DNA of 43,331 nucleotides from the IMG/VR virus record IMGVR_UViG_3300005516_000500, positions 1 to 43,331 of that record; one strand, 5' to 3'. The notes beneath the pieces are model-generated. The model made no database searches and was not told the origin of the DNA. It saw only the letters and a program-made list of their open reading frames with translations. Both the position numbers and the translations under genes were made by a program. This document shows, piece by piece, positions 7,129-38,023 of the stretch (its first letter is position 1; the number at the start of each line of letters is the position of its first letter). The stretch is from a virus.

Positions 7129-7162
7129 CTGTACATCCTTCTTATTCGCTTTATATTTCTAT

Positions 7163-19627: not shown

Positions 19628-20428
19628 ATGCCTGAAGGTGCAGAAGTTAGAAAGTATGGCCAGTCACTGGCGGAAAAGGTTAGCGGAACTACGTTAACAA
19701 GCATCAATATTGTGTCAGGTAGATATACAAAGAAGTTGCCGGAAGGGTTTGAAACTTTTTGTAATCAATTACCTGCACAAATTGTTGGTGTAGGCGTTCA
19801 TGGAAAGTTTTTGTATTGGATTCTTTCAAATGACACGTATATTCATAGTACTTTAGGTATGACAGGTCATTGGACAGATCAAGAAACGGGACATATAAGA
19901 GTTAGTTTTGAAACGTCTAGAGGGAACATAATTTATAGTGATCAAAGAAATTTTGGAACACTTAAATTTACGACAGGAAAAAGAACTCTAATTGAAAAGC
20001 TTGAAGCCCTAGGGCCAGATATGCTGTCAGATGTATCAGATGATCAATTTATTGAAGCAATAAGAAAAAAGCCAAAATGGTCTATCGCTAAAATTATAAT
20101 GGATCAAAATATTATTGCAGGTGTGGGTAATTATGTCAAAGCTGAATCTCTGTGGCTTTCAAAACTATCACCGCACAGAATATCAGGAGAGCTTACAGAT
20201 CATGAGCTCAAGATCTTAAATCACTCTATACAGACAGTCTTGCGAGAAAGTTTGCAAAATGGCGGTGCCTCTCTTCGAACTTATCGAGGCTTTGATGGAT
20301 CTGTCGGGCAATACACTTCTATGTTTGCTGTTTATAATCAATCACAGGATCCTGATGGCAATGAGGTCATTAAGGAAAAGACTGCAGATGGACGTACTAC
20401 ACATTGGGTACCTGCAGTTCAACTTTAG
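19628..20428 (+). CDS. Fpg/Nei-family DNA glycosylase with a zincless finger
   Basis: This 266-residue base-excision repair enzyme removes oxidised bases and cuts the strand. Seen: the catalytic N-terminal Pro2 with Glu3 (MPEGAEV), Lys60 in HGKFLYW, the H2TH region IIAGVGNYVKAE (with Asn168), and a C-terminal beta hairpin. The hairpin keeps Arg256 in DGRTTHWVPAVQ, but all four zinc cysteines of Fpg are missing, so it is a zincless finger as in NEIL1 and the mimivirus Nei proteins. AGGAG precedes the ATG. The N-terminal Met must be removed for activity. It would protect the phage genome against oxidation. Confidence 0.9.
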   Translation: MPEGAEVRKYGQSLAEKVSGTTLTSINIVSGRYTKKLPEGFETFCNQLPAQIVGVGVHGKFLYWILSNDTYIHSTLGMTGHWTDQETGHIRVSFETSRGNIIYSDQRNFGTLKFTTGKRTLIEKLEALGPDMLSDVSDDQFIEAIRKKPKWSIAKIIMDQNIIAGVGNYVKAESLWLSKLSPHRISGELTDHELKILNHSIQTVLRESLQNGGASLRTYRGFDGSVGQYTSMFAVYNQSQDPDGNEVIKEKTADGRTTHWVPAVQL

Positions 20429-20673: not shown

Positions 20674-21045
20674 ATGGATAAGTTAGATGAAATGTTTCGA
20701 CTTCGAGAGGCATTTATGTATGCTATGAGAGAGTCAAAACCTGACATATACCCAGATTGGCCTGTTGAAATTAATGAAAAGAAAAGTCAGCAACTTTTAA
20801 GAGACACTGCACTCAAAGGTGTTGAAGAAATGTTTGAGGCTCTTGGCCATCTTAAAAATTGGAAGCCGCATCGTAATACAGAGATCACTGAGTTTGATCA
20901 TGATGAGTTCTTAGAAGAGATCGTGGATGCTTTTAATTATTTTTTCTCAATTTTAGTACTTACTGGCGTAACATCAGATGAGCTTTATAGTACATACGTT
21001 AAGAAAGATAACATAATTCACCAAAGACTCCAAACTGGATATTGA
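20674..21045 (+). CDS. All-alpha NTP pyrophosphatase, dimeric dUTPase-like
   Basis: This 123-residue protein fits the all-alpha MazG/dimeric-dUTPase superfamily, which hydrolyses dUTP or other NTPs to NMP and pyrophosphate. The metal-binding acidic pattern is present: KGVEEMFEAL in helix 1 and EEIVDAFNYFFSI in helix 2, followed by the typical DELYSTYVKKDNIIHQR ending. T4 gp56 dCTPase/dUTPase belongs to the same superfamily, so dCTP is also a possible substrate. The N-terminal half of the fusion at 22642 aligns with it but has lost some of these acidic residues, so the two are likely paralogues. CGGAGAA lies before the ATG. Confidence 0.75.
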   Translation: MDKLDEMFRLREAFMYAMRESKPDIYPDWPVEINEKKSQQLLRDTALKGVEEMFEALGHLKNWKPHRNTEITEFDHDEFLEEIVDAFNYFFSILVLTGVTSDELYSTYVKKDNIIHQRLQTGY

Positions 21046-22438: not shown

Positions 22439-22642
22439 ATGCGTAGTGGTCAACTAGTAAAATTAAAACCTTATTCAATGGTGGACTATGGAACACCAGA
22501 AGGATCTATGTCGTTTCAGGTTGAAGACAACAATTGCTTCGGTGTCGTTTTAGACTTTTATAGCTATAGCGGAACATACGAAGTTTTGCTTGACGGAGAA
22601 GTCTGTTTTAACGTCTATCCAGACAGTTTGGAGGCTGTGTAA
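22439..22642 (+). CDS. Small unrecognised protein
   Basis: From the ATG at 22439 the product has 67 residues; the frame is open upstream to a TTG at 22385 inside the reversed gene, which is unlikely to be used. It is beta-rich (SGQLVKLKPYSMVDYG, ending YEVLLDGEVCFNVYPDSL), like a small SH3-type or beta-barrel fold. There is no clear ribosome site, and the stop shares a base with the start of the next gene (TAATG), which points to co-translation with the pyrophosphatase-HAD fusion. No family is recognised. Confidence 0.5.
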   Translation: MRSGQLVKLKPYSMVDYGTPEGSMSFQVEDNNCFGVVLDFYSYSGTYEVLLDGEVCFNVYPDSLEAV

Positions 22643-23598
22643 TGAATGACTGGAATAATACAGCAAGTGCAGCAGAACTACAAAAAAGATTTTCTGATTT
22701 GTTTTTCAATTCTAAAGACATGACGTCTGAAGAAAGACAAGAAATGATGAAAACTTTTGTTCTGTCCTTGCATGGTGAAATAAGTGATTTAGCATCATCT
22801 ATCAATTACAAAGATCATAGGCTTACAGAAAAGCCTGTTAATCATGAGACAATTCTGTTTAAAACAGTTGATGCCTATCGATATCTTTTGGCAATATTGA
22901 ACTTATGGGAAATTCCCGGTGAAGAATTTACCCGCGCTCTATCTCAAAAAGATGAGTTTCTTCATTATCGTCACTTTTTAGAAAACAAGAAATGGGAAGG
23001 CCAGCCTGTTGTTTTGTTTGACATGGATGATGTATTAGCAGAGTTCAGATCTGAATTTTGTGAGTTTGCCAGTAATCATACAGGCATTTATATTGATCCA
23101 AATACATCTGAATATTATAATACAACGGCATTTCGTGAAAATAATATTGACAGTGAAGAAGTGTTTCGAGAGTTCATTCGGAGTCGCTTGTTTGCCTCTC
23201 TAAAGCCCAATAAACATTTTGTTGATGTTTTTAATGAGCTCAAGCAAAAAGGCTTCTGGGTACAAATTCTAACTGCTCGACCTTCTGAAAGCTTATTTTG
23301 TTATTATGATACATTTACATGGCTTTCAAAGCATGGATTAGAAGCTGATGCAGTAGCATTTTCTACTGAGAAATTTAGATGGCTATCTGATCAAGAGTTT
23401 TATGGAAAGACAAAAGTATTTGCTATCGACGATTCAGCAAAGCACGCTAGCGAGTATGCCAAGCATGGAATTGATGTTATCGTACCAGAAACGTCTTACA
23501 ATAAAGAAGTCGATGGCCGTGAGAATATTTTGTACATGAAAGAAGGTACTGATATTGTAAACACAGTTAGGAGCTACATAAATGAAACAATATCTTAG
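22642..23598 (+). CDS. Fusion of MazG/dUTPase-like domain and HAD-family 5'-nucleotidase
   Basis: The 318-residue protein has two parts. Residues ~1-110 align with the whole dUTPase-like protein encoded at 20674 (LHGEISDLASSI, then KTVDAYRYLLAI and LSQKDEFLHYR), but the EE of helix 2 is Phe-Lys here, so the metal site is weakened. Residues ~120-315 are a HAD phosphatase of the 5'(3')-deoxyribonucleotidase type: FDMDDVL with nucleophile Asp127 and Asp129, ILTARPSES as motif II, and VFAIDDS as the acidic motif. The HAD part should remove phosphate from a nucleoside monophosphate. The fusion would link NTP to NMP to nucleoside steps, or the first domain may only sense the nucleotide. GGAGG precedes the ATG. 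Confidence 0.75.
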   Translation: MNDWNNTASAAELQKRFSDLFFNSKDMTSEERQEMMKTFVLSLHGEISDLASSINYKDHRLTEKPVNHETILFKTVDAYRYLLAILNLWEIPGEEFTRALSQKDEFLHYRHFLENKKWEGQPVVLFDMDDVLAEFRSEFCEFASNHTGIYIDPNTSEYYNTTAFRENNIDSEEVFREFIRSRLFASLKPNKHFVDVFNELKQKGFWVQILTARPSESLFCYYDTFTWLSKHGLEADAVAFSTEKFRWLSDQEFYGKTKVFAIDDSAKHASEYAKHGIDVIVPETSYNKEVDGRENILYMKEGTDIVNTVRSYINETIS

Positions 23599-23869: not shown

Positions 23870-24847
23870 ATGCCCATCAATAAGGATCTACAACCCATTG
23901 AACTACCAATGGATTTGAAGTTCGGACAGCGATCAACAACTAGATTTCGAAATAATCTAGATGCTCTTGATGTAGAGCTGGTCGATGCTCCCACAACTGA
24001 CCAGGCAAGAAATGTTGCTTGGCATTATGTCAAGGCGACGTGGGCTGACGATCCTTATTCGATCGATCCCAGTAAAGCGCCAGAAAATTTAAAAAGTAAG
24101 AATCTTTTAGATGTGCTTCAATTCAGAGCACTTCCAACACCAATGGAATGTTTAGGCTTTACATTCCGCTTGTCAGGTTTGTCATTTCAGGAAGTTACAC
24201 ATATTATTCGTCATCGTGCTGGATCTTTTGCTGCGCAATGTACGGGTGATCGTGATTTAAGAGATGATGATGCAGTAATCCCGGAATCAGTTGAAAATTC
24301 ACCTGACTTTTTAGAAAGATACAAGAAATTAGTTGAGGATTCAAAGCAGCTCTATTCTGATATGACTGACTCCAAGGTTATCTCAATGATGGATGCTCGA
24401 ATGATTCTTCCAAAGTGCATGACTTCATTCTATTATATGCGATTAAATCTTAAGGATTTGATTGGTTTTGTGAATCAAAGACAAGATAAGCAGATTCAGC
24501 CGGCCGCAGATAATATTTTGGCCGCTCGAATGGCCATCGAGGCTTGCAAAGCAATTCCGGAGTTAACTCAGGTATTTAATTTTGATAAGCAGGATATTCA
24601 TTACATTAAAACATTTCGTGTTCAAGAGGGTGATAAGTGGATTTCGCGAGGTACCAATTTATATTGGCCTGAGCCGAAGAATGATACATTTGATTTTCAC
24701 CCTGAAGATACAATCTATCAATGTCGTCGAGAAGAATTAAACGGTACACATGGTAGCGGAGAAAAGGTATTTACACATATGTGGGGTGCCTTAATGAATG
24801 AATTCCAGATTCTTAAGGATCGATATAACAACCAAGGAGGAGAATAA
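23870..24847 (+). CDS. thyX: Flavin-dependent thymidylate synthase (ThyX)
   Basis: This 325-residue protein makes dTMP from dUMP with FAD, NADPH and methylene-tetrahydrofolate. The ThyX core is visible: MECLGFTFRLSGLSFQEVTHIIRHRAGSF with the RHR motif at 114-116, then a downstream block NLKDLIGFVNQRQDKQIQ. The usual RHRxxSxxxxSxRY reads RHRAGSFAAQCTGDRD, so the second Ser and the Tyr are replaced. It is longer than typical ThyX (about 220-250), with extra residues at both ends. The ribosome site AAGGAG is good. Together with the dUTPase-like protein, dCMP deaminase and TK it forms a full thymidylate supply route. Confidence 0.83.
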   Translation: MPINKDLQPIELPMDLKFGQRSTTRFRNNLDALDVELVDAPTTDQARNVAWHYVKATWADDPYSIDPSKAPENLKSKNLLDVLQFRALPTPMECLGFTFRLSGLSFQEVTHIIRHRAGSFAAQCTGDRDLRDDDAVIPESVENSPDFLERYKKLVEDSKQLYSDMTDSKVISMMDARMILPKCMTSFYYMRLNLKDLIGFVNQRQDKQIQPAADNILAARMAIEACKAIPELTQVFNFDKQDIHYIKTFRVQEGDKWISRGTNLYWPEPKNDTFDFHPEDTIYQCRREELNGTHGSGEKVFTHMWGALMNEFQILKDRYNNQGGE

Positions 24848-24850: not shown

Positions 24851-25303
24851 ATGGCACAGAGAAAAGTTTATTTAGCATCAGGTTGGTTTAATCCAACTCA
24901 AGCAGCCGAACTAGATGCACTAGAAGATATTTGTGATGGCAGAGAGTGGATCGATCTAGCATCACCACGTAGAATTTTTGTATGCCCCCCGAACGCACCA
25001 AAAGAAACGCAGGATGCAACATTTGCGGGTAATCTTCATCATATTACAACCGCTGATTTTTTGATTGTCAATACTCGTGACAAGGATATTGGCACAATTT
25101 GGGAGGCAGGTTATGCGCATGCTAAGAATGTCCCCATTGTCTATTTTTGTGCAGGGCTACCATCAGGCGCCAAGTTTAATCTTATGTTGGCACGAAGCGG
25201 TGTCAAGGTGTGTACTTCGTATGCAGAATTAGAGGATTACTTAGATCGATGCTTTGAAGCAGAAACTCTCCTATTTGAACCTTACAGCGACGCGATCGAG
25301 TAG
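24851..25303 (+). CDS. Nucleoside 2-deoxyribosyltransferase-like protein
   Basis: The 150-residue protein matches the nucleoside 2'-deoxyribosyltransferase fold: VYLASGWFNPTQAAEL at the N-terminus, FAGNLHHITTADFLIVN in the middle, and KDIGTIWEAGYAHA with the likely catalytic Glu85. These enzymes swap bases between deoxynucleosides, or split deoxynucleotides, through a covalent sugar intermediate. In phages the role is salvage or making unusual deoxynucleotides. It starts three bases after thyX with AAGGAGGAG upstream, so it is in the same operon. Confidence 0.8.
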   Translation: MAQRKVYLASGWFNPTQAAELDALEDICDGREWIDLASPRRIFVCPPNAPKETQDATFAGNLHHITTADFLIVNTRDKDIGTIWEAGYAHAKNVPIVYFCAGLPSGAKFNLMLARSGVKVCTSYAELEDYLDRCFEAETLLFEPYSDAIE

Positions 25304-25314
25304 TCTCGTATGCG
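25291..25314 (+). promoter_or_regulatory. Hairpin covering a stop-start junction
   Basis: CGAG (25297-25300) pairs with CTCG (25305-25308) around a TAGT loop that contains the previous stop codon; outer CGC (25291-25293) can pair with GCG (25312-25314) across a 3x3 internal loop. The ATG of the next gene (25310) lies within the 3' arm and has no Shine-Dalgarno sequence. Ribosomes finishing the upstream gene would open the hairpin, so the downstream gene is probably translationally coupled. Confidence 0.4.
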
Positions 25315-26287
25315 AGTTTTTATCACTGGGGAGGCAGGTTTCATTGGTAGGAATCTGCCCGCCTCATTTAGAAAGCATGGTCACGTGGTTGTGTCTGGTG
25401 ATAGAGCTAGTATGCAAAAGACCCCAAAGGGTGAGCCGTGTGTGCATAGAAACAATACCGATCAGTGGGCTTCGTTTTTTAAAAACCTAGAGATTGATCT
25501 TGTTGTACACAATGCTGCCGTCGTCGGAACAGATGTGGTGGCACTCAACCAAAAAGAGTCTACACTAACGAATGTAATGGGTACACATAATATATGTCAG
25601 GCAGCAAAGGCTACAGGAATTCCTGTTTGCTATATGGGCACATCTGTCATATACGATACACCAAGCTACCAAGATGAAGCCATTCTCGAGGAAAGCATTG
25701 TGTCACCTAGTACGTTTTATGGTGCACAGAAGCTAGCTGGTGAATATGTCGTTAAGAGCACAGTCAAGGATTGGCTTATAATGAGGCCCCTCTTTGCTTA
25801 TGGCGGTGTTGGGGACATGAACTCCTTGGTGGCTAAGACATTTTACGCGCACAGGAACAAGAAAGATCGAGTCGATATGTTCTTGGATCCAAAAAAAGTC
25901 AAAGACTACATGCATGTAGAAGATTTTTGTGATGCTGTAGCCTTGGCATGCTCTTTGGAGCTATGGGGAAATGACTTCAATATTTCTGCTGAGGAGCCCA
26001 TTCCTACATGGCAAATCATAGACATGATGTCGGGCGCATGTGGACAAGATCTGGCATATATGATTAAGTGGTATCCAGAGACGGACTACTTGGGCAATCA
26101 TATTTTGTCATCGCAAAAATTTAGAAGAGAGACAGGCTGGAAACCTAAGTACACCTTCAACCGGGGCTTAGTCAAGTCATGGAGAAGTATTCTGTCTGCG
26201 GGTGACAGCTATAACCCTTTAGCTCACCTTGAGGAAGCCCAAGAAAAGGGAATAGACCTCAATCAATTTTTTCCTAAAAAAATGTAA
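25310..26287 (+). CDS. NAD-dependent epimerase/dehydratase (extended SDR)
   Basis: This 325-residue protein has the nucleotide-binding motif TGEAGFIGRNL (usually TGGxGFIG) near residues 6-16, Ser112 in MGTSVIY, and the YGAQKLAGEY motif with Tyr137 and Lys141, so the Ser-Tyr-Lys triad is complete. The family changes sugar nucleotides (4-epimerases, dehydratases, fucose or rhamnose synthesis). There is no ribosome site and the start lies in a hairpin, so it probably depends on translation of the upstream gene. Two sampled 60-base lines are 52 percent G+C against 35 percent in a sampled line of dnaE, and codon use is unlike its neighbours, so recent transfer is likely. Confidence 0.88.
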   Translation: MRVFITGEAGFIGRNLPASFRKHGHVVVSGDRASMQKTPKGEPCVHRNNTDQWASFFKNLEIDLVVHNAAVVGTDVVALNQKESTLTNVMGTHNICQAAKATGIPVCYMGTSVIYDTPSYQDEAILEESIVSPSTFYGAQKLAGEYVVKSTVKDWLIMRPLFAYGGVGDMNSLVAKTFYAHRNKKDRVDMFLDPKKVKDYMHVEDFCDAVALACSLELWGNDFNISAEEPIPTWQIIDMMSGACGQDLAYMIKWYPETDYLGNHILSSQKFRRETGWKPKYTFNRGLVKSWRSILSAGDSYNPLAHLEEAQEKGIDLNQFFPKKM

Positions 26288-26334: not shown

Positions 26335-29300
26335 ATGACAATCAATATTATTCGTCCACCTGATCGCTTTGTTGGGCTTCATGCACATTCAAGCTTTTCA
26401 ACATTTGATGGATTAGGATATCCCAAAGAACATATTGATTTTGTTCTATCTGAACAACAAGGTATGGACGCATGGGCTCTTACTGATCATGGCAACGGTT
26501 CAGGATTAGCACATGCAAGATCTCATACTGTTAAGATGCAAAAAGCAGGTCGCAAGTATCGACAAATTTACGGCGTTGAATTTTACTTTGTACCCTCTTT
26601 AGAAGATTGGAGGGTGTCATATGAAGATCATCGTCAATCAATTAAAGATGCAAAGACAGCAAAGCAAAAAGAAAAGCTATCAACTGAAAAGACAGTTATC
26701 GTTGCTGACCAAGAAGTAGAACAAGGTGGTCATGTAATTGAGGATGAAGAAGAAACTAAGCGATCAAGGGGCAACAAGCCTGAGTGGAAGAGGTATTATC
26801 ACCTTGTTGTAGTTGCCAAAAATCAAGTAGGATTAGGTAATTTATTTACCCTTGTCAAAAAGTCATATAAGCATGGCTTTTATCGTTTTCCTCGAATTGA
26901 TTACAAGCTTTTAAAAGAGCATGGTGAAGGACTAGTAGTTTCTACTGCATGCGTCGGAGGTTTAGCGTCAGGTTTAATTTATAGGCAGTTTGCAGGACTT
27001 CGTTTTGATGAATTGCATCCTGACTTAATGAATAACTTGGATGACTATAATCCAATTATGTCACGCTTAGAAAATATGACTGATCGATTTGTTGACTGTG
27101 TAGGTCAGGATAATTTTTTCTTGGAAATGCAATTTAATGATTTGCCTGCACAACATCTAACAAATCGATGTCTTTTAGATCTTTCTCAAAAGACTAATAT
27201 ACCCCTTATTGCAACAGCAGATTCACACTTTCCCGATCCTCAAAAGTGGCAGGCTCGCGAGCTTTATAAGAAGCTAGGATGGATGGGCGCTAAACTTGAT
27301 CAAAGCATGCTACCTAAGGAAGAAGACTTAAAGTGCATGTTGTATCCTAAAAATGCACAGCAAATGTGGGATGAGTTTAAGCAAGGATATGATCAATATA
27401 ATTTTTATCAAGGACATGAAGAATCTGTTAGAGATGCTATTGAACGTACTCATGATATTACATGGCAAAAGTGCGAGGATACATGGATAGACACCTCAGT
27501 CAAGCTTCCCAAATTTGGAACACCGGAGAAGCCTGCATTTAAAATGTTGGCTGAGCTTGTTAAAGAAGCTATGATTCGAGAGGGGCTAGCATCTAATCCT
27601 GAATATGTCGAACGCATGAAGGAAGAGATGTCTGATATCAAGTATCTTGGTTATGAGGCGTACTTTTTGGCAATGTATAAGATTTTTCACCTTGCTGAAA
27701 AACGTACGCTCTTTGGGCCCGGTCGAGGTTCTGGTGCAGGCTCACTTGTAAACTATCTGTTAGGAATTACACAAATCGACCCTCTTCCTCATGGCCTTCT
27801 TTGGTCACGATTTCTTGGTCGCCATAGAACATCTTGGCCTGACATTGATACCGATGCTGGAGATCGCGATGCATTGATTGATGCTTCTAGAGAGTTGTTT
27901 GGAGATGATGCTGTTATTCCTGTGTCAAACTTTAATACGCTTAAACTTAAGTCGCTCATCAAGGATATTGCGAAGTTTTATGGAATTGATTTTACCGAAG
28001 TAAACAAAATGACAGGTCCGTTACAGGAAGAAGTTATGAAGTTTGCTAAGGATGAGAATCAAGAAAAGTCTGTGTTTGTTCTTAAACATGAAGATTGTCT
28101 AAAGTACTCTCAGGGCTATCGTGAATTCATGGAAAAATATCCAGAGGTAGGTCGACATGTCGAAACACTTTTTATGGAAAATCGATCTATTGGTCGCCAC
28201 GCCGGCGGTGTAATTATTGCCCCTCCAGAAGAACTAGCATCGACAATGCCTATCATTGGTGTAAGAGGAGACCTTCAGACTCCTTGGACAGAAGGTATGA
28301 ATTTTCGAAATCTTGAGGATAATGGGTTTCTAAAGTTTGACTTTTTAGGACTTACACTTCTTAAGGATGTTGAAAATTGTATTGGGCGCATTCTAAAAAA
28401 GCAAGGTAATACAAATCCAACTTTTGCTGATATTAAGACATTCTTCGATGAACATTTAAATTGTCGTTACAATGACCAAAATGACAATGATGTATGGAAG
28501 CACGTTTATCATAATGCGAGATTTACAGGAGTATTTCAATTTACAGCAACAGGTGCACGTCGTTTTTGCTTAGCGGCCCAACCAACTACCATTACAGAGT
28601 TGGCTGCATTAACCGCAATTTATCGCCCAGGACCACTTAAGGCAAATGTCCATAGGAAATATGTAAAAGCTAAAAAGAATGCCTCAGAGATCAAGTATGA
28701 TCACCCTGTAATTGAAAAAGTGTTGGGCCCAACTTTTAACTTTGTTGTTTTTCAAGAGCAATTTATGACTTTGGCTGTCGAGCTGGCTGGATTTACTCCT
28801 GGAGAATCTGATAAGCTTCGCAAAACACTAGTTAAAAAGTCATTAGACACAATGGGCAAAAAGGGCGGTGAAAGAGAGGCTGCACGTAAGAAGTTTGTTG
28901 AGGGTGCATATGAACTCCACGGTATTGATAAAAACATCACGGAGGCACTCTGGAAGACTATTGAAGCATTTTCTGTATATGGCTTTAATAAGTCACATGC
29001 AGTGTCTTACGCTATTGATTCTTATTACGCAGCATGGCTCCATACGCACTATGAGACTGATTGGCTATCAACAATTCTACAATCTGAAAACAATAGTCCA
29101 AAAGGGTTATCAAAAACTATAGCAGAAATCAAAGCCATAGGATATAAATTTGCGTCTGCTGATGTGAATTATTCAGGCGATGAATGGGTATATTCAGATG
29201 AGATCAGTGCTTTTGTTCCCCCGCTAAGTTCTGTTAAAGGCGTAGGTTCTGTAGCTATGCAAGAAATGATGATGATGCGACCATATAGCTCAGTTGATGA

Positions 29301-29967
29301 TATGCTATTTGATGAAGATGGAAAGTGGAAGCATTCTAAAATGAATAAGACATGCATTACTTCTCTTTGCAAAGTTGAAGCATTTTCATCTTTAACTGAA
29401 CTAAAAGACGGTGATATTGAAAATCACCATCAACTTCTAGCAATTATAACAGATGGAAAGAACTATGACAAGCTTAAGAAGGGCCGATATGGCTTGACAA
29501 AAACTCAGCTTCGTCGAATGGAGAAAAATGGAGAAATCCCTGTTCCAATGTTAAAAAACCTGAAGGAAGAATATAAAATGCTTCAGGATTGGACACGTAT
29601 TGAAAAAGTAAAAAATTATGTTGCTCTAACTCAAAGCGTTAATAATACATTAGTCTTTCCCGATGCTATGATGGAACGTGTACATGAAAAGAATATTGAA
29701 TCAATCTTTTCTGTTCCTGGGGGTGAAAAAGGTGTAGGATGGTTTTGTGTAATGGATATCATTCATAAGAAGACTAAAAATGGAAAGGATTTTATGAGAA
29801 TGAAAATTCTTGACATGGACAATAATACAGCATGGCTTCGGGTGTGGGGAAAGTTTCCTGAAGCACCCGATCCTTATACACTATGGGTTGCTAATGTTCA
29901 CAATGATAAGAATTGGGGAATGTCAACATCTGCATGGAAGATGAAACAAGTTACAGCATATGATTAA
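26335..29967 (+). CDS. dnaE: DNA polymerase III alpha subunit (family C, DnaE)
   Basis: This 1210-residue replicase has the bacterial DnaE layout. The PHP domain starts with FVGLHAHSSFSTFDG (His16, His18) and contains a charged insertion at about residues 110-145. The palm holds GPGRGSGAGSLV near 461 and PDIDTD with catalytic Asp503 and Asp505, and the third Asp669 is in LKFDFLGL. AIYRPGPL, VVFQEQFM and the GFNKSHAVSYA helix-hairpin-helix-type region follow, then an OB-fold-like C-terminus (about 1120-1200). All three catalytic aspartates are present and the PHP histidines suggest possible proofreading. No sliding clamp or DnaQ is seen in the window. The gene starts a unit with AAGGAG and an upstream dyad. 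Confidence 0.95.
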   Translation: MTINIIRPPDRFVGLHAHSSFSTFDGLGYPKEHIDFVLSEQQGMDAWALTDHGNGSGLAHARSHTVKMQKAGRKYRQIYGVEFYFVPSLEDWRVSYEDHRQSIKDAKTAKQKEKLSTEKTVIVADQEVEQGGHVIEDEEETKRSRGNKPEWKRYYHLVVVAKNQVGLGNLFTLVKKSYKHGFYRFPRIDYKLLKEHGEGLVVSTACVGGLASGLIYRQFAGLRFDELHPDLMNNLDDYNPIMSRLENMTDRFVDCVGQDNFFLEMQFNDLPAQHLTNRCLLDLSQKTNIPLIATADSHFPDPQKWQARELYKKLGWMGAKLDQSMLPKEEDLKCMLYPKNAQQMWDEFKQGYDQYNFYQGHEESVRDAIERTHDITWQKCEDTWIDTSVKLPKFGTPEKPAFKMLAELVKEAMIREGLASNPEYVERMKEEMSDIKYLGYEAYFLAMYKIFHLAEKRTLFGPGRGSGAGSLVNYLLGITQIDPLPHGLLWSRFLGRHRTSWPDIDTDAGDRDALIDASRELFGDDAVIPVSNFNTLKLKSLIKDIAKFYGIDFTEVNKMTGPLQEEVMKFAKDENQEKSVFVLKHEDCLKYSQGYREFMEKYPEVGRHVETLFMENRSIGRHAGGVIIAPPEELASTMPIIGVRGDLQTPWTEGMNFRNLEDNGFLKFDFLGLTLLKDVENCIGRILKKQGNTNPTFADIKTFFDEHLNCRYNDQNDNDVWKHVYHNARFTGVFQFTATGARRFCLAAQPTTITELAALTAIYRPGPLKANVHRKYVKAKKNASEIKYDHPVIEKVLGPTFNFVVFQEQFMTLAVELAGFTPGESDKLRKTLVKKSLDTMGKKGGEREAARKKFVEGAYELHGIDKNITEALWKTIEAFSVYGFNKSHAVSYAIDSYYAAWLHTHYETDWLSTILQSENNSPKGLSKTIAEIKAIGYKFASADVNYSGDEWVYSDEISAFVPPLSSVKGVGSVAMQEMMMMRPYSSVDDMLFDEDGKWKHSKMNKTCITSLCKVEAFSSLTELKDGDIENHHQLLAIITDGKNYDKLKKGRYGLTKTQLRRMEKNGEIPVPMLKNLKEEYKMLQDWTRIEKVKNYVALTQSVNNTLVFPDAMMERVHEKNIESIFSVPGGEKGVGWFCVMDIIHKKTKNGKDFMRMKILDMDNNTAWLRVWGKFPEAPDPYTLWVANVHNDKNWGMSTSAWKMKQVTAYD

Positions 29968-30880
29968 TAAGGGATTACGAATACATACAGTATGTATAGA
30001 AGGACCTGATTTGTCTGGTAAGTCTACACTCTATAGAAAGCTTCATAAGATGAGTGGGTTTAGATGGAATATTCAAGATCGATCTGAAGTAAGCATGCTA
30101 TGTTTTTCTAAGTTTTATAATAGAGGTGATGCAAATAATTGGCGATCAGCACTTAATGATCGCCTCCGAGACATGAATCATCGATATATCTTATTGTTGC
30201 CAGACATACAGCTTCTTAAAGAAAGGTATTTGTCGAGAGGCGATGAAATTCATACGCTTGAATCTCTTTGTAGATCATATGAGATATTTGATGAAGAGTT
30301 TCAATCTTTAAAGGTGTATCCAAATGTATTGTGCATTAATGTAACAAAAGAAAATGAAAACAATATTGCAAATATAGCGTATCAGTGGCTCGAAAATGAA
30401 GAGACTGAAACATTAATAGATTTAGCAAAACGATTTGAAAAGTCAGCTTATGCATGTGACAATGAAATATTGGGATCCCATGCTCAATATTTTCTAGATA
30501 GTGACTATACTGATGCTGATAGCTCTGTAATGGATTATGAGCCGGAAAAAGAATATTATCAAGGAATTCGAGATCAATTTTTAAGAAAAATTGCAAAAGA
30601 AATTTCCGGAGAAAATGAATTTATATCACCTCAAAATCCGCAAATCACGAGACGATTTGTTTATGCACATGATAGCTGTATTTCTATGATTAACTGTCTT
30701 ATAAGAAATAATCGATTGAACGTTTTCGCGGTAATTCGATCTTCTAATGCTAGAGACATATTATCTTATGACTTAAGATTTATTGTTACATTGATTAGTG
30801 AAGCAGAATCATTTTTTAATACTAAAATTGATGAAAGAGTATTGAATGTAACAATACATTCAGCTCATATCATAAACTAA
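29960..30880 (+). CDS. Deoxynucleotide kinase fused to a thymidylate synthase/dCMP-hydroxymethylase-type half domain
   Basis: The first ~150 of 306 residues form a P-loop kinase of the thymidylate/deoxynucleotide type (EGPDLSGKST at 14-23). The last ~70 residues align without gaps to the catalytic half of thymidylate synthase as I recall it: Cys240 matches the catalytic Cys, Arg260-Ser261 lies exactly 20 residues on as in the E. coli enzyme (Cys146-Arg166), and Asp271 falls on Asn177. Asn to Asp at that place is what T4 dCMP hydroxymethylase has. His303 may match the later His. The N-terminal half of the TS fold is not recognisable in residues 150-235, so activity is uncertain. It overlaps dnaE by 8 bases. 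Confidence 0.6.
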   Translation: MINKGLRIHTVCIEGPDLSGKSTLYRKLHKMSGFRWNIQDRSEVSMLCFSKFYNRGDANNWRSALNDRLRDMNHRYILLLPDIQLLKERYLSRGDEIHTLESLCRSYEIFDEEFQSLKVYPNVLCINVTKENENNIANIAYQWLENEETETLIDLAKRFEKSAYACDNEILGSHAQYFLDSDYTDADSSVMDYEPEKEYYQGIRDQFLRKIAKEISGENEFISPQNPQITRRFVYAHDSCISMINCLIRNNRLNVFAVIRSSNARDILSYDLRFIVTLISEAESFFNTKIDERVLNVTIHSAHIIN

Positions 30881-30925
30881 AATTATTATACGATTATATT
30901 GTAAGGATATTGTAAGGTGAGAGAT
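30881..30925 (+). promoter_or_regulatory. AT-rich leader with tandem ribosome sites
   Basis: This short gap is AT-rich (TTATACGATTATATTG) and could hold a -10 element, though no -35 is clear. Two Shine-Dalgarno-like runs, TAAGGATATTG and TAAGGTGAGAG, lie before a GTG (30917) and an ATG (30926) in the same frame, giving two possible starts for the epimerase. Confidence 0.35.
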
Positions 30926-31957
30926 ATGCAAAAAGTTTTAGTTACAGGAGGCTGTGGATTTATAGGCAGCCATTTAGTACGACAGTTAGTTAAGTTGGAA
31001 GAATATGATATTGATGTTGTTGATAATTTAGCATCAGGTAGTTTGGAAAGCTTATCTGGGCTTAAGACACGATGTGTTGCTTCTGGATTGTTACCAATTT
31101 ATGAGCAAAATGAAGAAAAGAATGATCCAAGCTCTATTTTAGTAATTGCGGGTGACTTTGTAGACCCTAATGTTTTAGAAAGAATTATGCAAAAACAATA
31201 TGATATTGTTTTTCATTTGGCTGCAAATCCTCGGGTAAGTTATAGTGTAGAAAACCCTACAATCACTACAGAAGAAAACATTTATAAGACAACTGCACTA
31301 TTCGAAGCTTGTCAAAAATCTGGTGTTCGTCGTGTCGTTTTTTCATCATCAAGTGCTGTATATGGAAACACACAAGATCTGCCAACAAAAGAAGATGATG
31401 CTATAGCTAGTAACATTCAGTCACCATACGGGTTGCAAAAAAAGGTATGCGAAGATTTTTCACAATTGTTTCATCGTTTGTATGGAACTGATATTGTGTC
31501 ACTAAGGTATTTTAATGTATACGGCCCTGGGCAAATGGGAGGTACGGCATATTCAACTGCTGTATCTGCATGGTGTAATGCAATACATTCAGGCTCAGTC
31601 TTAAGAAGCGACGGTGATGGATCTCAAACTAGAGACATGATATATGTTGATGATGTAGTATCTGCAAATATACTTGCTGCCGAAGCGCCACCTGCAGCTG
31701 CCGGCAAAATATTCAATATTGCTACTGGTTATTCTATTAGTAATTCTGAAATATTGACAATGTTTCATGATCATTATGGAGACCAAGTTAAAGTAAAGTC
31801 AGCACCTGAACGTCCTGGCGACGTTAAACATACATTGGCAAGTATTGAAAATGCAGAACTTGAATTGGGTTTCCGAGCTCGAACATCATTTTCTGAAGGT
31901 CTACAAAAAACATGGAAATGGTGGGACACATTAGACTCTGAAAGGAATGACACTTGA
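30926..31957 (+). CDS. NAD-dependent epimerase, GalE/UDP-sugar type (extended SDR)
   Basis: This 343-residue protein has a perfect nucleotide-binding motif VLVTGGCGFIGSHL at the N-terminus, VFSSSSAVYG with the active Ser, and SPYGLQKKVCEDF with Tyr and Lys. RYFNVYGPGQ and the RDMIYVDDV block are typical of UDP-glucose/UDP-glucuronate 4-epimerases. Its base composition is AT-rich like its neighbours, unlike the SDR at 25310. It may supply a sugar for phage DNA, capsid or host surface glycans. ATG 30926 was chosen after TAAGGTGAGAG; GTG 30917 would add three residues. Confidence 0.9.
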   Translation: MQKVLVTGGCGFIGSHLVRQLVKLEEYDIDVVDNLASGSLESLSGLKTRCVASGLLPIYEQNEEKNDPSSILVIAGDFVDPNVLERIMQKQYDIVFHLAANPRVSYSVENPTITTEENIYKTTALFEACQKSGVRRVVFSSSSAVYGNTQDLPTKEDDAIASNIQSPYGLQKKVCEDFSQLFHRLYGTDIVSLRYFNVYGPGQMGGTAYSTAVSAWCNAIHSGSVLRSDGDGSQTRDMIYVDDVVSANILAAEAPPAAAGKIFNIATGYSISNSEILTMFHDHYGDQVKVKSAPERPGDVKHTLASIENAELELGFRARTSFSEGLQKTWKWWDTLDSERNDT

Positions 31958-32517
31958 GAGATCCTGAATTTATCATATTCACGGGACCTATGTTTGGTTC
32001 CAAGACAACACGTTTATTGGCAGCTGTTGATAGATACAAGTATCAAAATAAAGATATTGTTGCATTCAAGCCACGAATGGATAATAGATATTCTAGCGTA
32101 GAAATATGTACGCACAGCGGTGGAAAAATAAGTGCTATTGGTGTAGAAACAGGTCATGATATTCTAAAATTTATAGATGATTTAGAGGGCGGCGTTGATG
32201 TTATTGCAATTGATGAAGCTTTTATGATTGATGATTGCGCAGCAGCAGCACTTACGCTATTCAGGAAAGGAGTTACAGTAATTGTAAGTTCACTACAACT
32301 TTCTGCTAGCGGAAATGTTTTTGAAGAAGTTCGAGATATGATGCCATGGGCGACAAGAATAGAAATTTGCCCGGCTGTGTGCCCTATTACCGGTCGGAAT
32401 GCATACTATACACATCGTAAGATAGATAGCATTGATGAGATTACAGTTGGCGGATCAGATATTTATGAGCCGCGGTGCTGGGAATTTCACGGTTTTATGA
32501 ACAGAAAGGAGCACTGA
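31954..32517 (+). CDS. tdk: Thymidine kinase, type II
   Basis: The 187-residue protein phosphorylates thymidine. Seen: P-loop GPMFGSKT at 11-18, VIAIDEAFMI as Walker B, and a lasso/zinc-ribbon region with CPAVCPITGR plus a late Cys in PRCWEF. The start is TTG, overlapping the epimerase stop as TTGA, with AAAGGAA 7 bases before it; no better in-frame start exists before the P-loop. The size fits the family (about 190). It recycles thymidine, feeding the same pool as ThyX. Confidence 0.9.
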   Translation: MRDPEFIIFTGPMFGSKTTRLLAAVDRYKYQNKDIVAFKPRMDNRYSSVEICTHSGGKISAIGVETGHDILKFIDDLEGGVDVIAIDEAFMIDDCAAAALTLFRKGVTVIVSSLQLSASGNVFEEVRDMMPWATRIEICPAVCPITGRNAYYTHRKIDSIDEITVGGSDIYEPRCWEFHGFMNRKEH

Positions 32518-32518: not shown

Positions 32519-33448
32519 ATGGCATTCGTTGAACCAACTTCGGTCGACTGCGTTATTTATCACGCTGACTGTACTGACGGATTTGGTGCTGCGTATGCTG
32601 CATGGAAGCAACTAGGAAACAGAGCCGAGTATCATCCATGTAAGCATGGCACAGCTCCCCCAAATGTTAAGGGTAAAGTTGTTGCAATTTTAGATTTCTC
32701 ATTTGATAATGCAACAACAAAAAAGATGATTGAAGAAGCTGCAGGCTTAATTATTATTGATCATCACAAGTCAGCCATGGTTGAGCTCCATGATATATCT
32801 AATACACATTTTGATATGACAAAATCTGGTGCTACTTTGGCATGGAATTTTTTCCATCCAGGAAAAGAAGCCCCTAAATTTATCAACTATATTGAAGATC
32901 GTGATCTTTGGAAGTGGGAGTTGCCCTACTCAAAAGAGTTTGCTGCTGCTTTTGATATGGTTCCATTTGAATTTGAAGAATTTGAAAAATTTGAAGATGA
33001 CTCTGTTTTTGATGATGCAGTCAAAAGAGGGTCTTATATACTGGCATATTCAAAGACAGTCGTCAAGAAGGTTTGCGAAAAAGCATCACCAAGAAAGCTA
33101 GACGGTAAAGACATTCTAGTTGTTAATGCATCACACTGGATGTCCGAAATCGGTGCCCGCCTCTCTCCTGACTGTGATGTTGCCATGATTTGGTACTATG
33201 ATCACAACGACAGGGTAATTAAGGTGAGTCTTCGATCGTTTCATGATACTGTCGATGTTACAGAAGTTGCCAAGAAATTTGGCGGTGGTGGTCACAAGAA
33301 GGCATCTGGGTTTACACTGCCCGGTGATGCAAATGTCGACGACATATTTGATGACGTACGACAGAAGAAGGAAAGAAATGCAAAGCGGCAATCAAGATCT
33401 ACGCGAAAAAAGTCTACAACAAACTCAGGATCCGGATCAACGTCCTGA
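32519..33448 (+). CDS. DHH/DHHA1 phosphoesterase (NrnA/RecJ family)
   Basis: This 309-residue hydrolase has YHADCTDGFGAA (first metal residues, about 14-25), DFSFD near 59-63, DHHKS at 81-85, and the DHHA1 motif GGGGHKKASGF near the C-terminus. The family contains oligoribonuclease/pAp phosphatase NrnA and RecJ. The small size favours an NrnA-like enzyme that degrades short oligonucleotides to mononucleotides, feeding the pool. The C-terminus is basic and Ser/Thr-rich and overlaps the deaminase gene by 71 bases in another frame. AAAGGAG is upstream. Confidence 0.87.
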   Translation: MAFVEPTSVDCVIYHADCTDGFGAAYAAWKQLGNRAEYHPCKHGTAPPNVKGKVVAILDFSFDNATTKKMIEEAAGLIIIDHHKSAMVELHDISNTHFDMTKSGATLAWNFFHPGKEAPKFINYIEDRDLWKWELPYSKEFAAAFDMVPFEFEEFEKFEDDSVFDDAVKRGSYILAYSKTVVKKVCEKASPRKLDGKDILVVNASHWMSEIGARLSPDCDVAMIWYYDHNDRVIKVSLRSFHDTVDVTEVAKKFGGGGHKKASGFTLPGDANVDDIFDDVRQKKERNAKRQSRSTRKKSTTNSGSGSTS

Positions 33449-33854
33449 TTGGCATCAGACATGGATGGATGTTGCTCACGTCATTGCGCTTCGATCATAT
33501 GATAAAAGATACAAGGTGGGTGCTGTTGTTGTCACAGATGACAATACTCAGCTTTTATCACTGGGCTATAATGGCAATTATGCAGGCGGACCTAATATCG
33601 CAGAGTCAGAAGAACCAGGTCAATCGGGTTTTCTTCATGCAGAGATTAACGCACTTCTAAAGCTTGACTACAATAACCCTAAAAGAAAGAAAATGTATCT
33701 CACATTATCACCATGCCCGATGTGCGCAAAGGCTATCGTTAATGCAGGTGTGGATGAGGTAATCTATTTTCAGGAGTACAGGGACTTAACTGGCGTAAAG
33801 ATCCTTAAGGATTCGGGTGTAGTAACCAGAACTTTTTCATCTCCACGAGAATAG
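33378..33854 (+). CDS. dCMP/cytidine deaminase
   Basis: The 158-residue protein converts dCMP to dUMP. Zinc-site residues are clear: HAE at 87-89 (FLHAEINALL) and PCPMC with Cys113 and Cys116. The start at ATG 33378 has AGAAGGAAAG upstream and lies inside the DHH gene (71-base overlap); the frame is open further up, but the deaminase domain begins only near residue 24. dUMP made here is the ThyX substrate. The N-terminal 23 polar residues are probably disordered. Confidence 0.88.
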   Translation: MQSGNQDLREKSLQQTQDPDQRPDWHQTWMDVAHVIALRSYDKRYKVGAVVVTDDNTQLLSLGYNGNYAGGPNIAESEEPGQSGFLHAEINALLKLDYNNPKRKKMYLTLSPCPMCAKAIVNAGVDEVIYFQEYRDLTGVKILKDSGVVTRTFSSPRE

Positions 33855-33892: not shown

Positions 33893-36800
33893 ATGTATTC
33901 TAAAGATAATATGACGCTAGCTGAAATTTCAAGAATTTGTACGGTAACATACGCAAAGTCTCTACGTGCCTGTGCAATAAGCCAAGGTCGATTGGTCGAG
34001 ACATTTCTAGAAACAAGAGATCTTGCCCTTCTTTTAGAAGAGGAAGAAGTAGCATTTACTGATGATGATGCTAATGCACTTAAGGCAGCAGTTGATGACT
34101 TAAAAAAGAAAGTCGATGATGTTAAAAAACTAAACGACTCAGTCTTAGGCGGCAAGATGAGCGGATCAGTCTCTGCCATTGAAGGATTAATGGGTGACAT
34201 ACCTGATGTTTCATCAATTGCCAGCCTTGCAACATCTGGCGACGGAGAAAAGCTAAAGGACGCGCTAGAAGAGCTTAATGAGCCTGTCAATAAGGTGGGC
34301 GAAGCCATAGCAATTATGACCCAAGCTCTGCAGGATGTTGCTCAAAATATTGCCGCAGCTGCTAAAGGACTAACAGACGAGCAAAAAGAGATGACCGTCG
34401 CAGAGCTTGCTGACAAGGCCAAAAATAAGGAGCTTAAGTCAGAGGATGGAAAGGAAATCGATTTTCCCGATCCTGACGCGATTAAGAAGGGCGCATCAAA
34501 GGCATTAGTCACCCCCGGGTGGTTCCAAAAGTCTCTTAAGTCTGGGATGGATGCGGCAAAGAAAGATGCAGGAGGATTTTTCGGTAAGGCTATGTCGTTT
34601 ATGAAGGGGCTCTTTGGCGGCGGCGGGAGTGATAAACTAATCGATCCTGAAACATTTGCTACAGAATTTATGGAGCTTACACTAGAGGAGCTTGAGGCAG
34701 GAGCAAAAGCCGCAGGTGACTTGTCTAGTTCTATGCAGGAAACTGTCGCGTCAAATGCTGAAGCAACCGGTGCAGCACAAGCCTCCGCTGCAGCCGAAGC
34801 CGAAGGCGACGATGGTAAGGAAGGAGAGCTCCCAGACTCTGCTAAGAAGGCTGAAAAGCGACCTGATTTTGACATTTCAGACCTTATAAAACTTTTATCT
34901 ATTACAAATGCTTCCGCTGCTAAATCTCTAGAGGGCTTACCAGAAGAAGAACAAGAAGCAGCCATGACTGATGATCTTGAAGCAATTCAAGGTGGTGAAG
35001 TTAGTCCTGAAGAGGCTTTAGACGGTGTTGCTGAAGAAGCCGAAGAAGCTGCTGATGCCCCTAAATGGTCTGAAATTTCAAAAGACTTTTTAGATGATCT
35101 AGGCGATGAATCAAAACCGGACGGCGAAGAGCTAATTGGCAATCTTAAAGATGATGAAGATTGGGCACAAAAAGTAGGTGCAGCAATCAATATGTCAGAA
35201 AGGTTTGTTCCTTCTAGGCTTCCAATGACAATTCTTCTTCAAGAAGACGTTGCTTTTGATGATATTATGACAGCAGCTTCATCCATAGTCGATGATGAAG
35301 CCAAAGCCAAGAAGTCTGCAATTACATTAGCACAATCAATTATTGATGCAGGTGTTGAAGTTAGTGACGTTCCAAGTGAAGATGAAGACGGTGAGGCGCC
35401 TGAGGCGAAAGAAGTTGAAGCTGCCTTAGATGAACTAGAACCTGGGCTTACATCTTATATAGACGATAATCAGGATATTATTGCAAAAGCACTTGCAGAT
35501 CTGCTTAAAGGAAATGAAGAGATTGCTGCCAAAGTTGCAGAGCTTCTCGCAGCAGATGAGGGTGAACGATCAGGTGAGGCAGAAGAGGTCGCTGATCTTG
35601 CCGATGATGCAGGAGTCTCACAGGATGATATCGATGCAGCCATTGAACAAGGAATTGAAGATGCCACAGAAGATCTTTCAGATGAAGTTGCTAGCGAAAT
35701 TGGTGATGGCCGAGAAGAGGCATTAACAAATTATCAAGCCGCTGAAGAAGCAGACGATGAAGATCTAGATGACAAAATAGCTGAAATCATATCAGATATC
35801 TCAGGTGAGTTAGGAGTTGATCCTGAAGAACTTGTAGCTGCTCTTGATGATGATGAAAAAATGGCAGAGTTCTTCATGGCGCTTGAAGATGATGTAAATA
35901 TTGATGATTTAGCTGAAGCAATTGAAGAATTACAAGAACTTCTTGCGCAGGCAGTTGAAGATGCAGGAGTTGCAGCAGAGGGAGAGTCTCAGCCTGGTGA
36001 AATGACGCCTGAAGAAAAAGAAGGTGCCATAGAAGCTATAAAAGATACAACAGAAAAGTGGCAAGAGGCAAAAGATGACGACGATGAAGCCAAGAAAGAA
36101 GAGGCTGAAGAGCTAATTGCAGCTGTTGCAGAAGAACAAGGTATTGATACAGATACGCTAATCAGTATCATTGAAGATCCAGAAGAAAATCTTGAAGATG
36201 CTGTTAAAGAAAATGAACTAGAAATTGATAAGCTTCAGGGTGCAATTGAAGATTTAGCAAATGAAATTGCAAACATGCTTAGCCGAGAAATTGAGGATGA
36301 ACCTGGAAATTTAACAGATGATGAAAAGGATGAGCTAGAAGCACTCTTAGAACCTGTTGCTGATGACTATGAAGAAGTAGAAGCTGAAGACTCTGATGAA
36401 GCTGAGGGTGTCATAGAAGAGCCGGCCCAGGAATTAGGTGTAAAACCTGATGAGCTTGGAGACGCTTTAGAAGATATCGATGCCTTGGATGCTTTAGTTA
36501 CTGATAAAGAGCTTAAGTTCTCTGATGTAAAGGATCAGTTGGTTGCTGCACAAGAAAATCTTGAAGGTGGTGCCGAGGGAGAAGAAGATGATCCTGCTGA
36601 AGTTGAAAAGATTGTAAGTGCTGCTACTGATTCCGCTGAAGACCCAGATGATTCAGAAGAAGCTGTTGAAGATGCAATAACACAAGCTATTGATAATTGG
36701 GAAGATCAGCTTTCAGATAGACAAAAGAAAAGAGTCAATTCTAAAGGAAGGTTAGATCAACTTAAGCAGGCAGTTGCAGATGCTACACCACCTCAAGTTG

Positions 36801-38023
36801 ATCCTCCAGCTGACCCTGAAGATGTACATAAGGCAGGTGAAGATTGGGGTAAACAACATAAGATTGATGATCCCACTAGCGCCCTAGGAAATCCCAAAAA
36901 TTTCTCTCCGGAGCAAATGAAAAAGCTTATTGATCTTTTTCCAGATATTGTACAAGATGTACAAGGCGAAGAGGGCGAAGAGGACGAAGACAAGGGTGAA
37001 AAGAACACCTATAAGCGCGGAGATTTTGAAAAGAAGCTAGAAGATGCATTTACTGCTGCAATGCCTGACTTAGCAAAGTCTGGTGGTGATATGTTGGCAG
37101 TTGCACTTGGCGACTGGATCATGAATAACGATGTTGAAGAAGTTGTTTTAGAAAACAAAGACTTCAGCAAGATTCTTTTAGAAAAGTACGACTTTAAAGC
37201 AATTTCAGATTATATGAAGGGCGAAATTAGTGATCTTGCTAAAGAGCTTGGCTATGAAGGAAAAGAAGATGCAGTTCTTGCTGACTTCTTAAGAGCAGTT
37301 GAGCCAGTCTTGGGAGAGGAAGGAATTGAAATAAACGGAATTCCTGATGACTCTACAGAAAAAGATGATGGCGACGGAAAACCTCAATCTGAAGATGAAG
37401 AAAAAGAGACCGATGACGCAACTGAAAAAGCATCTGCTGCTGCTGAAAAAGAAGCCGCGTCTAAAGGGCTTTCACCTTCCGCAGGCGCTCAAGAAATTGT
37501 TGCACAATGGGCTGAGTCTGGCAAAACACTTTCAAAGAATGTATCAAAGAAGCAACGAGAAAAGCTTAAGGGTGCATTAACTCCTATTCTAGATACTGCT
37601 GCTGAAAAGCTTAAGGGCGAAGTAGAAAAAGCAGTGGATGATTGGCGCGGAGCTCAAAAGGTATTGCAGAAACCAAACGTTTCAGATAAGCAAATCAATA
37701 CGCTCAAGCAAAGCCTTTCAGATTTTATATCAACTGTTGTTAAGTCAGAATCGCGAAATCTCTCTCAAACAAAGAAAATCTTGATCGAGAAAATTACAAA
37801 ATTTTTAATATCACAGGCAGGATTTACACGAGTTGAGCTCAGAACAATGGATCAAAAAACGCTTTTAGAAAATTTTGTTCATAGCTATTGCAATATACAA
37901 ACACACTCTCTGGACAGGAGAGGCATGCTGGTTGAGGTTTTAGATACAAGAACCAATTTTAAGACCAGTTATGCAGAAGAATCAACAGCGGACCGATGGA
38001 CGCGTCTGGCAGGATTATCATGA
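33893..38023 (+). CDS. Giant acidic repeat protein, probably virion-associated
   Basis: The 1376-residue protein is extremely rich in Asp, Glu and Ala and has long helical stretches. The N-terminus has several LLE/FLE-type helices (LVETFLE, ALLLEEEE). A Gly-rich hinge and hydrophobic patch (KGLFGGGG) lie near residue 240. Residues ~639-945 hold three degenerate copies of a ~100-residue unit, each starting like ELGVDPEEL (639), EQGIDTDTL (748) and ELGVKPDEL (847). The C-terminal ~120 residues are less acidic (KKILIEKITKFLI...). Neighbouring proteins are acidic too and may be head proteins, so a head-core or scaffold role is plausible; no family is recognised. GGAG precedes the ATG. Confidence 0.6.
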   Translation: MYSKDNMTLAEISRICTVTYAKSLRACAISQGRLVETFLETRDLALLLEEEEVAFTDDDANALKAAVDDLKKKVDDVKKLNDSVLGGKMSGSVSAIEGLMGDIPDVSSIASLATSGDGEKLKDALEELNEPVNKVGEAIAIMTQALQDVAQNIAAAAKGLTDEQKEMTVAELADKAKNKELKSEDGKEIDFPDPDAIKKGASKALVTPGWFQKSLKSGMDAAKKDAGGFFGKAMSFMKGLFGGGGSDKLIDPETFATEFMELTLEELEAGAKAAGDLSSSMQETVASNAEATGAAQASAAAEAEGDDGKEGELPDSAKKAEKRPDFDISDLIKLLSITNASAAKSLEGLPEEEQEAAMTDDLEAIQGGEVSPEEALDGVAEEAEEAADAPKWSEISKDFLDDLGDESKPDGEELIGNLKDDEDWAQKVGAAINMSERFVPSRLPMTILLQEDVAFDDIMTAASSIVDDEAKAKKSAITLAQSIIDAGVEVSDVPSEDEDGEAPEAKEVEAALDELEPGLTSYIDDNQDIIAKALADLLKGNEEIAAKVAELLAADEGERSGEAEEVADLADDAGVSQDDIDAAIEQGIEDATEDLSDEVASEIGDGREEALTNYQAAEEADDEDLDDKIAEIISDISGELGVDPEELVAALDDDEKMAEFFMALEDDVNIDDLAEAIEELQELLAQAVEDAGVAAEGESQPGEMTPEEKEGAIEAIKDTTEKWQEAKDDDDEAKKEEAEELIAAVAEEQGIDTDTLISIIEDPEENLEDAVKENELEIDKLQGAIEDLANEIANMLSREIEDEPGNLTDDEKDELEALLEPVADDYEEVEAEDSDEAEGVIEEPAQELGVKPDELGDALEDIDALDALVTDKELKFSDVKDQLVAAQENLEGGAEGEEDDPAEVEKIVSAATDSAEDPDDSEEAVEDAITQAIDNWEDQLSDRQKKRVNSKGRLDQLKQAVADATPPQVDPPADPEDVHKAGEDWGKQHKIDDPTSALGNPKNFSPEQMKKLIDLFPDIVQDVQGEEGEEDEDKGEKNTYKRGDFEKKLEDAFTAAMPDLAKSGGDMLAVALGDWIMNNDVEEVVLENKDFSKILLEKYDFKAISDYMKGEISDLAKELGYEGKEDAVLADFLRAVEPVLGEEGIEINGIPDDSTEKDDGDGKPQSEDEEKETDDATEKASAAAEKEAASKGLSPSAGAQEIVAQWAESGKTLSKNVSKKQREKLKGALTPILDTAAEKLKGEVEKAVDDWRGAQKVLQKPNVSDKQINTLKQSLSDFISTVVKSESRNLSQTKKILIEKITKFLISQAGFTRVELRTMDQKTLLENFVHSYCNIQTHSLDRRGMLVEVLDTRTNFKTSYAEESTADRWTRLAGLS
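35807..36730 (+). repeat. Three degenerate ~100-codon coding repeats
   Basis: Within the acidic protein, units start at residues 639 (nt 35807), 748 (36134) and 847 (36431), spaced 109 and 99 residues. Each opens with a G-[IV]-x-x-[DE/T]-x-L helix cap, then an acidic helix, and a second helix such as DLAEAIEELQELL. The DNA repeats are diverged, so the duplication is old. Confidence 0.5.

Follow-up and report, generated by a model that had tools for sequence, protein, structure and literature searches.

What is the function of a viral protein that joins a dNMP kinase to a domain resembling thymidylate synthase (TS)? The question is raised by an open reading frame (ORF) in a 43,331-base contig from an uncultured virus, the whole of which was analysed and is termed the window here (table 1). 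The first 8 bases of this ORF are shared with the end of the DNA polymerase III alpha gene, its upstream neighbour. Family libraries label the fusion as a thymidylate kinase only, and list its stand-alone TS-like relatives under unknown function. The initial annotation described the ORF as a kinase joined to the catalytic half of a TS or dCMP hydroxymethylase, and proposed that it serves a route to modified cytosine via hydroxymethyl-dCMP. The ORF is present as described, and the interpretation as a whole is partly supported.

Table 1. Coordinates of the kinase–TS fusion, its domains and active-site residues, the neighbouring genes, and stand-alone relatives of the TS-like domain. Positions refer to the window unless another record is named.
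Feature	Position	Strand	Remarks
Kinase–TS fusion ORF	29960..30880	+	306 aa, ATG start
P-loop dNMP kinase domain, residues 1-148	29960..30403	+	phrog_761 thymidylate kinase, E 1.3e-8
Compact TS-fold domain, residues 149-306	30404..30877	+	AF2, Foldseek, hhalign
Arg231-Arg232 (ThyA Arg126-Arg127)	30650..30655	+	42/42; phosphate site, from partner subunit in TS
Cys240 (ThyA Cys146, nucleophile)	30677..30679	+	42/42; next residue Ile, not His147
Arg260-Ser261 (ThyA Arg166-Ser167)	30737..30742	+	42/42, invariant
Asp271 (ThyA Asn177)	30770..30772	+	Asp in 42/42; Asp here favours cytosine (PMC8670742)
His303 (ThyA His207), motif SAHI	30866..30868	+	42/42; Tyr209 replaced by Ile/Leu; C terminus 3 residues later
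MazG-like all-alpha NTP pyrophosphatase	20674..21045	+	Assigned by reading of the sequence
ThyX330, divergent ThyX paralogue	23870..24847	+	325 aa, RHRx7C; Pfam Thy1, E 4.5e-19
Nucleoside 2-deoxyribosyltransferase/N-glycosidase-like	24851..25303	+	Pfam PF05014, E 1.6e-12; adjoins ThyX330
Second epimerase/dehydratase-like protein of the cluster	25310..26287	+	
DNA polymerase III alpha gene	26335-29967		Upstream of fusion ORF
NAD-dependent nucleotide-sugar epimerase (GalE-like)	30917..31957	+	Directly 3' of fusion ORF
Thymidine kinase	31954..32517	+	Pfam TK, E 3e-32
dCMP deaminase	33243..33854	+	Pfam E 1.4e-20; phrog_174 E 1.8e-45; domain at residues 69-176
Stand-alone TS-like domain genes	OK896991.1 29720-30175 (L102:12969-13424); L103:5001-5453; L104:5001-5432		Overlapping or directly after ThyX330

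A search of 50,697 sequenced phages returned no full-length homologue. Scans of viral contigs via the polymerase gene, then via an alignment, together with an ORF scan, turned up another 41 distinct homologues, each about 300 aa long and almost all from contigs of uncultured viruses; one more contig, binned as a Euryarchaeota MAG (L069), came from a subsequent genome scan. An assembly artefact can be rejected, as some 40 independent contigs carry the fusion. A match to a Klebsiella phage 'deoxynucleotide kinase' (H15) lies antisense to an annotated gene and was dismissed as chance.

The kinase domain is intact and of the dNMP-kinase type, judging by its motifs. The Walker A sequence EGPDLSGKST, D40-R41, R55, R89 and R93-G94-D95 are invariant or nearly so across the 42 sequences; those without exception in the family alignment are E14, G15, D17, G20 and K21, D40 and R41, R89, and R93, G94 and D95, such that Walker A, the DR motif and the LID arginines are all kept. 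The thymidylate kinase family phrog_761 is matched by 41 of the 42 members. The nearest solved relative by family profile is the deoxynucleotide kinase YorR of SPbeta (2axp/3kb2; E 8e-10), which has the P-loop, DR and RGD motifs in common with the kinase half, as has phrog_761, but, unlike the fusion, carries no TS-like domain.

Residues 151-306 on their own have no match in Pfam, and single-sequence searches of Pfam, PHROGs, the PDB and phages gave no significant TS match; only the family profile did so. The Pfam TS family PF00303 was likewise not matched in the 45 contigs that carry the fusion. When the domain alignment was compared with phage TS-superfamily sequences, hhalign returned 96.9% and 1.7e-10 using full alignments (96.8% with small ones), while a column-shuffle control reached at most 3.9% in 100 shuffles, which rejects a chance motif as the source of the likeness. 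Searched against all ORFs of the collected loci, the domain HMM picked out, beyond the family itself, only TS-superfamily proteins before noise set in at 0.38; these are PTm1 (1e-8), HTVC200P, HTVC119P, ATCCB and T4 gp42 (5e-5). In the PDB, hmmsearch placed T4 dCMP hydroxymethylase first (E 0.0027), with the entries 9iqu and 9iqc for AfhB, a phage enzyme discussed below, at 0.04.

Structure prediction leads to the same superfamily. AF2 models of the whole protein (pLDDT 95.4, pTM 0.90) and of the domain alone (pLDDT 94.8, pTM 0.89) each gave about 190 PDB matches at E<=0.001 in Foldseek, and the 50 listed all belong to the TS superfamily. AfhB takes the first two ranks (9iqu and 9iqc; E 9e-6 and 1.3e-5 for the whole protein, 5e-6 and 1.5e-5 for the domain), and in the domain search the T4 gp42 entries follow directly, with TSs next. 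Profiles, AF2 and Foldseek agree on a dNMP kinase fused to a TS-superfamily domain, and on this point they support the initial annotation.

The fold is reduced, as the TM-scores are moderate (0.41-0.62 by query length) and the rmsd is large. In the predicted secondary structure the domain retains helix A, strand i, strands ii-v and helix J of TS, with the segment between strands i and ii shortened from about 90 residues in ThyA to about 50; nearly everything past H207, including the C-terminal folate-closing tail, would be gone. Residues 149-306 therefore amount to a compact whole TS core. The 'catalytic half' of some 70 residues that was proposed at first is replaced by this core, which extends over about 149-306 in the predicted secondary structure.

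Conservation within the domain is concentrated in the nucleotide site. In E. coli ThyA numbering, R126, R127, C146, R166, S167, the Asp that replaces N177, and H207 are invariant in 42 of 42 sequences; by hhalign alignment they correspond to R231, R232, C240, R260, S261, D271 and H303 of the fusion. R249 and E196 are kept in 41 of 42. The domain has nine invariant columns, and these include seven of the 11 alignable dNMP-site positions of ThyA (hypergeometric 2.7e-8). For catalytic Glu58 and Tyr94 the counterparts can be placed only tentatively, with E196 and Y221 as conserved candidates. The alignment bears out the earlier observations that Cys240 and Arg260 are 20 residues apart, as are Cys146 and Arg166 of ThyA, and that Asp271 lies on Asn177, and both the catalytic Cys and the Asp at the base-specificity position proved universal in the family (42/42). 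The claim of an ungapped match holds for the stretch from the Cys to the following helix and fails beyond it, where Cys240 and His303 are 63 residues apart compared with 61 for Cys146 and His207, owing to a two-residue insertion.

These seven dNMP-site residues are invariant across 42 domains whose mean pairwise identity is only 35%, a pattern that speaks for a functional cytosine-nucleotide enzyme. Asp at 177 and a residue other than His at 147 are the states associated with cytosine: no other two positions discriminate as well between TS proteins from contigs with modified cytosine and the rest, and the modified group has Asp177 (PMC8670742). Features of TS proper are missing: position 177 is Asp instead of Asn, 147 is Ile or Leu instead of His, 209 is Ile or Leu instead of Tyr, and the folate-closing tail is absent.

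Which chemistry such an enzyme would perform depends on its closest relatives. AfhB is the flavin-dependent dCMP 5-hydroxylase of phage HY126 (PDB 9iqu, 9iqc) and is homologous to PTm1 and to the RB69/X20-type '5-hydroxy-dCMP synthases'. RB69-type enzymes make 5-hydroxy-dCMP (PMC13390438). AfhB is the best fold match of the TS-like domain; both retain Cys146, Arg126/127, Arg166, Ser167, Asp177 and His207, and in both a SAH(I/V) strand lies near the C terminus with no long tail after it. The best single-sequence match of the domain, PTm1, is itself of the AfhB class (E 3e-42 to 9iqu). Three positions were compared between the classes. At 173, gp42 and TS have Gly, four AfhB-class proteins have Val, and the fusion has mostly Thr, Ile, Lys or Asn; at 209, gp42 and TS have Tyr, the AfhB class has Phe, and the fusion has Ile or Leu; and 169 is Asn in the four AfhB-class proteins and Asp, Asn or Glu in the fusion family. 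AfhB itself is not fused to another protein, has about 230 aa and includes a longer stretch between its first strands, whereas the fusion domain has about 158 aa and is linked to a kinase. Neither the kinase–TS fusion nor AfhB itself was the subject of any paper found in the literature searched, whose scope left out most subscription journals and preprints.

The other candidate is an enzyme like T4 gp42, which would use folate to hydroxymethylate dCMP and leave the phosphorylation of hydroxymethyl-dCMP to the fused kinase. T4 offers the nearest parallel: there gp42 and the dNMP kinase gp1 act one after the other, two steps that T4 divides between two proteins and the fusion would hold in one chain. 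Like the domain, gp42 belongs to the TS superfamily and has Asp177 and a residue other than His at 147. The Asp and the Cys at 146 of the domain would fit such an enzyme, and gp42 is the top PDB profile match and comes directly after AfhB by fold. It is nonetheless a separate gene that retains Asp169, Gly173, Tyr209 and the C-terminal tail, whereas the fusion family has lost Gly173 and Tyr209, does not conserve Asp169 and ends soon after the SAH strand. The lost Gly173 and Tyr209 and the early chain end favour the AfhB type, and since the folate-binding parts are missing or not conserved and AfhB is nearest in fold, flavin-dependent hydroxylation at C5 is slightly favoured over folate-dependent hydroxymethylation. 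The hhalign scores for the three classes (AfhB 93%, gp42 90%, TS 95%) do not separate them. We regard the gp42-type enzyme as unlikely; hydroxymethyl-dCMP, the product initially proposed, is not supported so far, and on sequence and model 5-hydroxy-dCMP would be at least as likely. A third cytosine enzyme of the superfamily, the CMP hydroxymethylase MilA (PDB 5b6d), is paired in mildiomycin synthesis with a deoxyribosyltransferase-fold hydrolase. It differs in acting on the ribonucleotide CMP and in being full-length, and the family profile did not match it in the PDB search.

The broader idea of a modified-cytosine route is plausible. We put at about even the chance that the fusion is a bifunctional enzyme that makes a C5-modified deoxycytidine nucleotide, coupling modification of dCMP at C5 to phosphorylation. 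In such an enzyme dCMP would be bound by the compact TS-fold domain, with Asp271 reading the cytosine edge and Arg231/232, Arg260, Ser261 and His303 holding the phosphate and sugar. Cys240 would attack C6 and C5 would then be modified, possibly by flavin hydroxylation. The fused kinase would phosphorylate the modified dCMP to the diphosphate, much as gp1 follows gp42 in T4, and a cellular NDP kinase would complete the triphosphate for incorporation into DNA. We infer each of these elements: dCMP as the substrate, the C5 chemistry, the cofactor, channelling, kinase action on the product and entry into DNA.

A potential partner is encoded in the same gene cluster. ThyX proteins occur in 38 of the 45 contigs and, sorted by length and score, comprise a class with open frames of about 320-360 aa, termed ThyX330 (36 contigs), and the canonical form (13 contigs), with both in 11. 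The serine of the RHRx7S motif is Cys in 20 of 20 aligned ThyX330 sequences and Ser in all 12 canonical ThyX sequences of the same contig set; ThyX330 also has a conserved QCTGDR motif. In the 11 contigs where canonical ThyX stands beside it dTMP synthesis is covered, so ThyX330 probably has a role other than making dTMP. It is a likely pathway partner of the fusion.

Among sequenced phages, Geobacillus phage GR1 alone has a close ThyX330 (44% identity). In GR1 a protein of its own, UDY80710.1 (151 aa, hypothetical; E 1.2e-10 with the domain HMM), makes up the TS-like domain, and its gene comes next to that of ThyX330 and overlaps it; the same pair of genes is found in two more contigs, making three GR1-type phages. 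UDY80710.1 belongs to phrog_35203, a family of unknown function that consists of the stand-alone TS-like domain and is matched by three fusion members; it differs from the fusion in being a separate gene and, in GR1, in the replacement of Arg232 by Gln. Upstream of the pair GR1 encodes a phrog_761 kinase as a protein of its own; genes for a glycosyltransferase, a deoxyribosyltransferase and a flavoprotein of nitroreductase/dihydropteridine-reductase-like type are close by. Kinase and TS genes are also neighbours in other phages: in the pelagiphages HTVC119P and HTVC200P the TS gene is immediately preceded by a kinase-like one (gp15 of HTVC119P is phrog_761), and Gordonia phage GMA2 has a thymidylate kinase and then TS.

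One relative, a contig of 46 kb (L011), keeps the kinase (13549-14094) and ThyX330 without a TS domain; this domain is therefore dispensable there, a point against the bifunctional enzyme. Such a kinase, along with the strong reduction of the domain and its lack of folate parts, would suit a non-catalytic module that binds dCMP and tunes the kinase, either in its specificity or allosterically. We consider this improbable, given that the nucleophilic Cys is present in all 42 sequences and also in the split version of GR1, which is separate from any kinase. The same contig weighs against a single composite enzyme in which the flavin, and possibly a carbon donor too, would come from ThyX330, and the cytosine site and covalent Cys from the TS-like domain: ThyX330 of this contig retains the Cys with no TS domain alongside. 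So do some fusion contigs in which no ThyX330 was found, though these are fragments. The overlapping or directly adjacent genes of the three GR1-type phages, the RHRx7C replacement, and the presence of ThyX330 in the same cluster in 36 of 45 fusion contigs are what speak for a composite enzyme, to which we give an equally low probability.

The bifunctional enzyme that we prefer may act within a wider pathway, in which ThyX330 (RHRx7C), the deoxyribosyltransferase-like protein and the nucleotide-sugar epimerases are likely fellow members. We suggest, tentatively and with clearly less confidence than for the fusion enzyme itself, an undescribed modified-cytosine pathway in which a compact, folate-free TS-fold domain with its own kinase works with a repurposed ThyX (RHRx7S Ser to Cys). 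The fusion adds a minimal, kinase-fused form to the TS superfamily, linked to a divergent ThyX. Modified cytosine would be expected from it in a large and mainly uncultured group of phages, in whose contigs, as far as examined, no ThyA-type TS occurs; GR1, as a cultured phage with the split version, is a possible test case.

The gene order of the cluster recurs, with variations, as ThyX, deoxyribosyltransferase, epimerase, PolIII, kinase–TS, epimerase, thymidine kinase and DHH. In the window the GalE-like epimerase, which also lies downstream of the fusion in about 30 relatives, is followed by thymidine kinase, a DHH phosphoesterase and dCMP deaminase, the last of which probably starts further into its ORF. 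The deoxyribosyltransferase-like protein has a homologue in GR1. The MazG-like protein, a candidate source of dCMP, has no family model match but has homologues within the corresponding cluster of relatives. A second ORF (22642-23598) has an N-terminal part that, on our own reading, looks MazG-like, fused to a 5'-deoxyribonucleotidase (NT5C) domain. An Fpg/MutM-type DNA glycosylase with all three domains is encoded at 19628-20428 and is possibly related to modified or oxidised bases.

In the 43,331 bases of the window as a whole neither an Rfam family nor a tRNA was found. Within 3904-8374, a 427-aa ORF starting at 7091, which runs over the end of another of 1074 aa, aligns with no more than the C-terminal part of a PolA-type profile; a DnaE-type polymerase is also present in this phage. 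A very acidic, low-complexity protein of 1376 aa, with no role assigned, is encoded at 33893-38023.

The glycosyltransferase of GR1 has no relatives in the fusion loci. Of glycosyltransferase families in Pfam, the one tested, PF13692, was not found in most fusion contigs, which counts against the bifunctional enzyme; just four have members at a distance of up to about 8 kb from the fusion, and these may not act on DNA. Three contigs of a subgroup without the GalE-like epimerase have pairs of glycosyltransferase-like genes (440-500 aa) a few kilobases downstream of the fusion (L028:9701-12516, L045:9515-12276 and L062:10472-12900).
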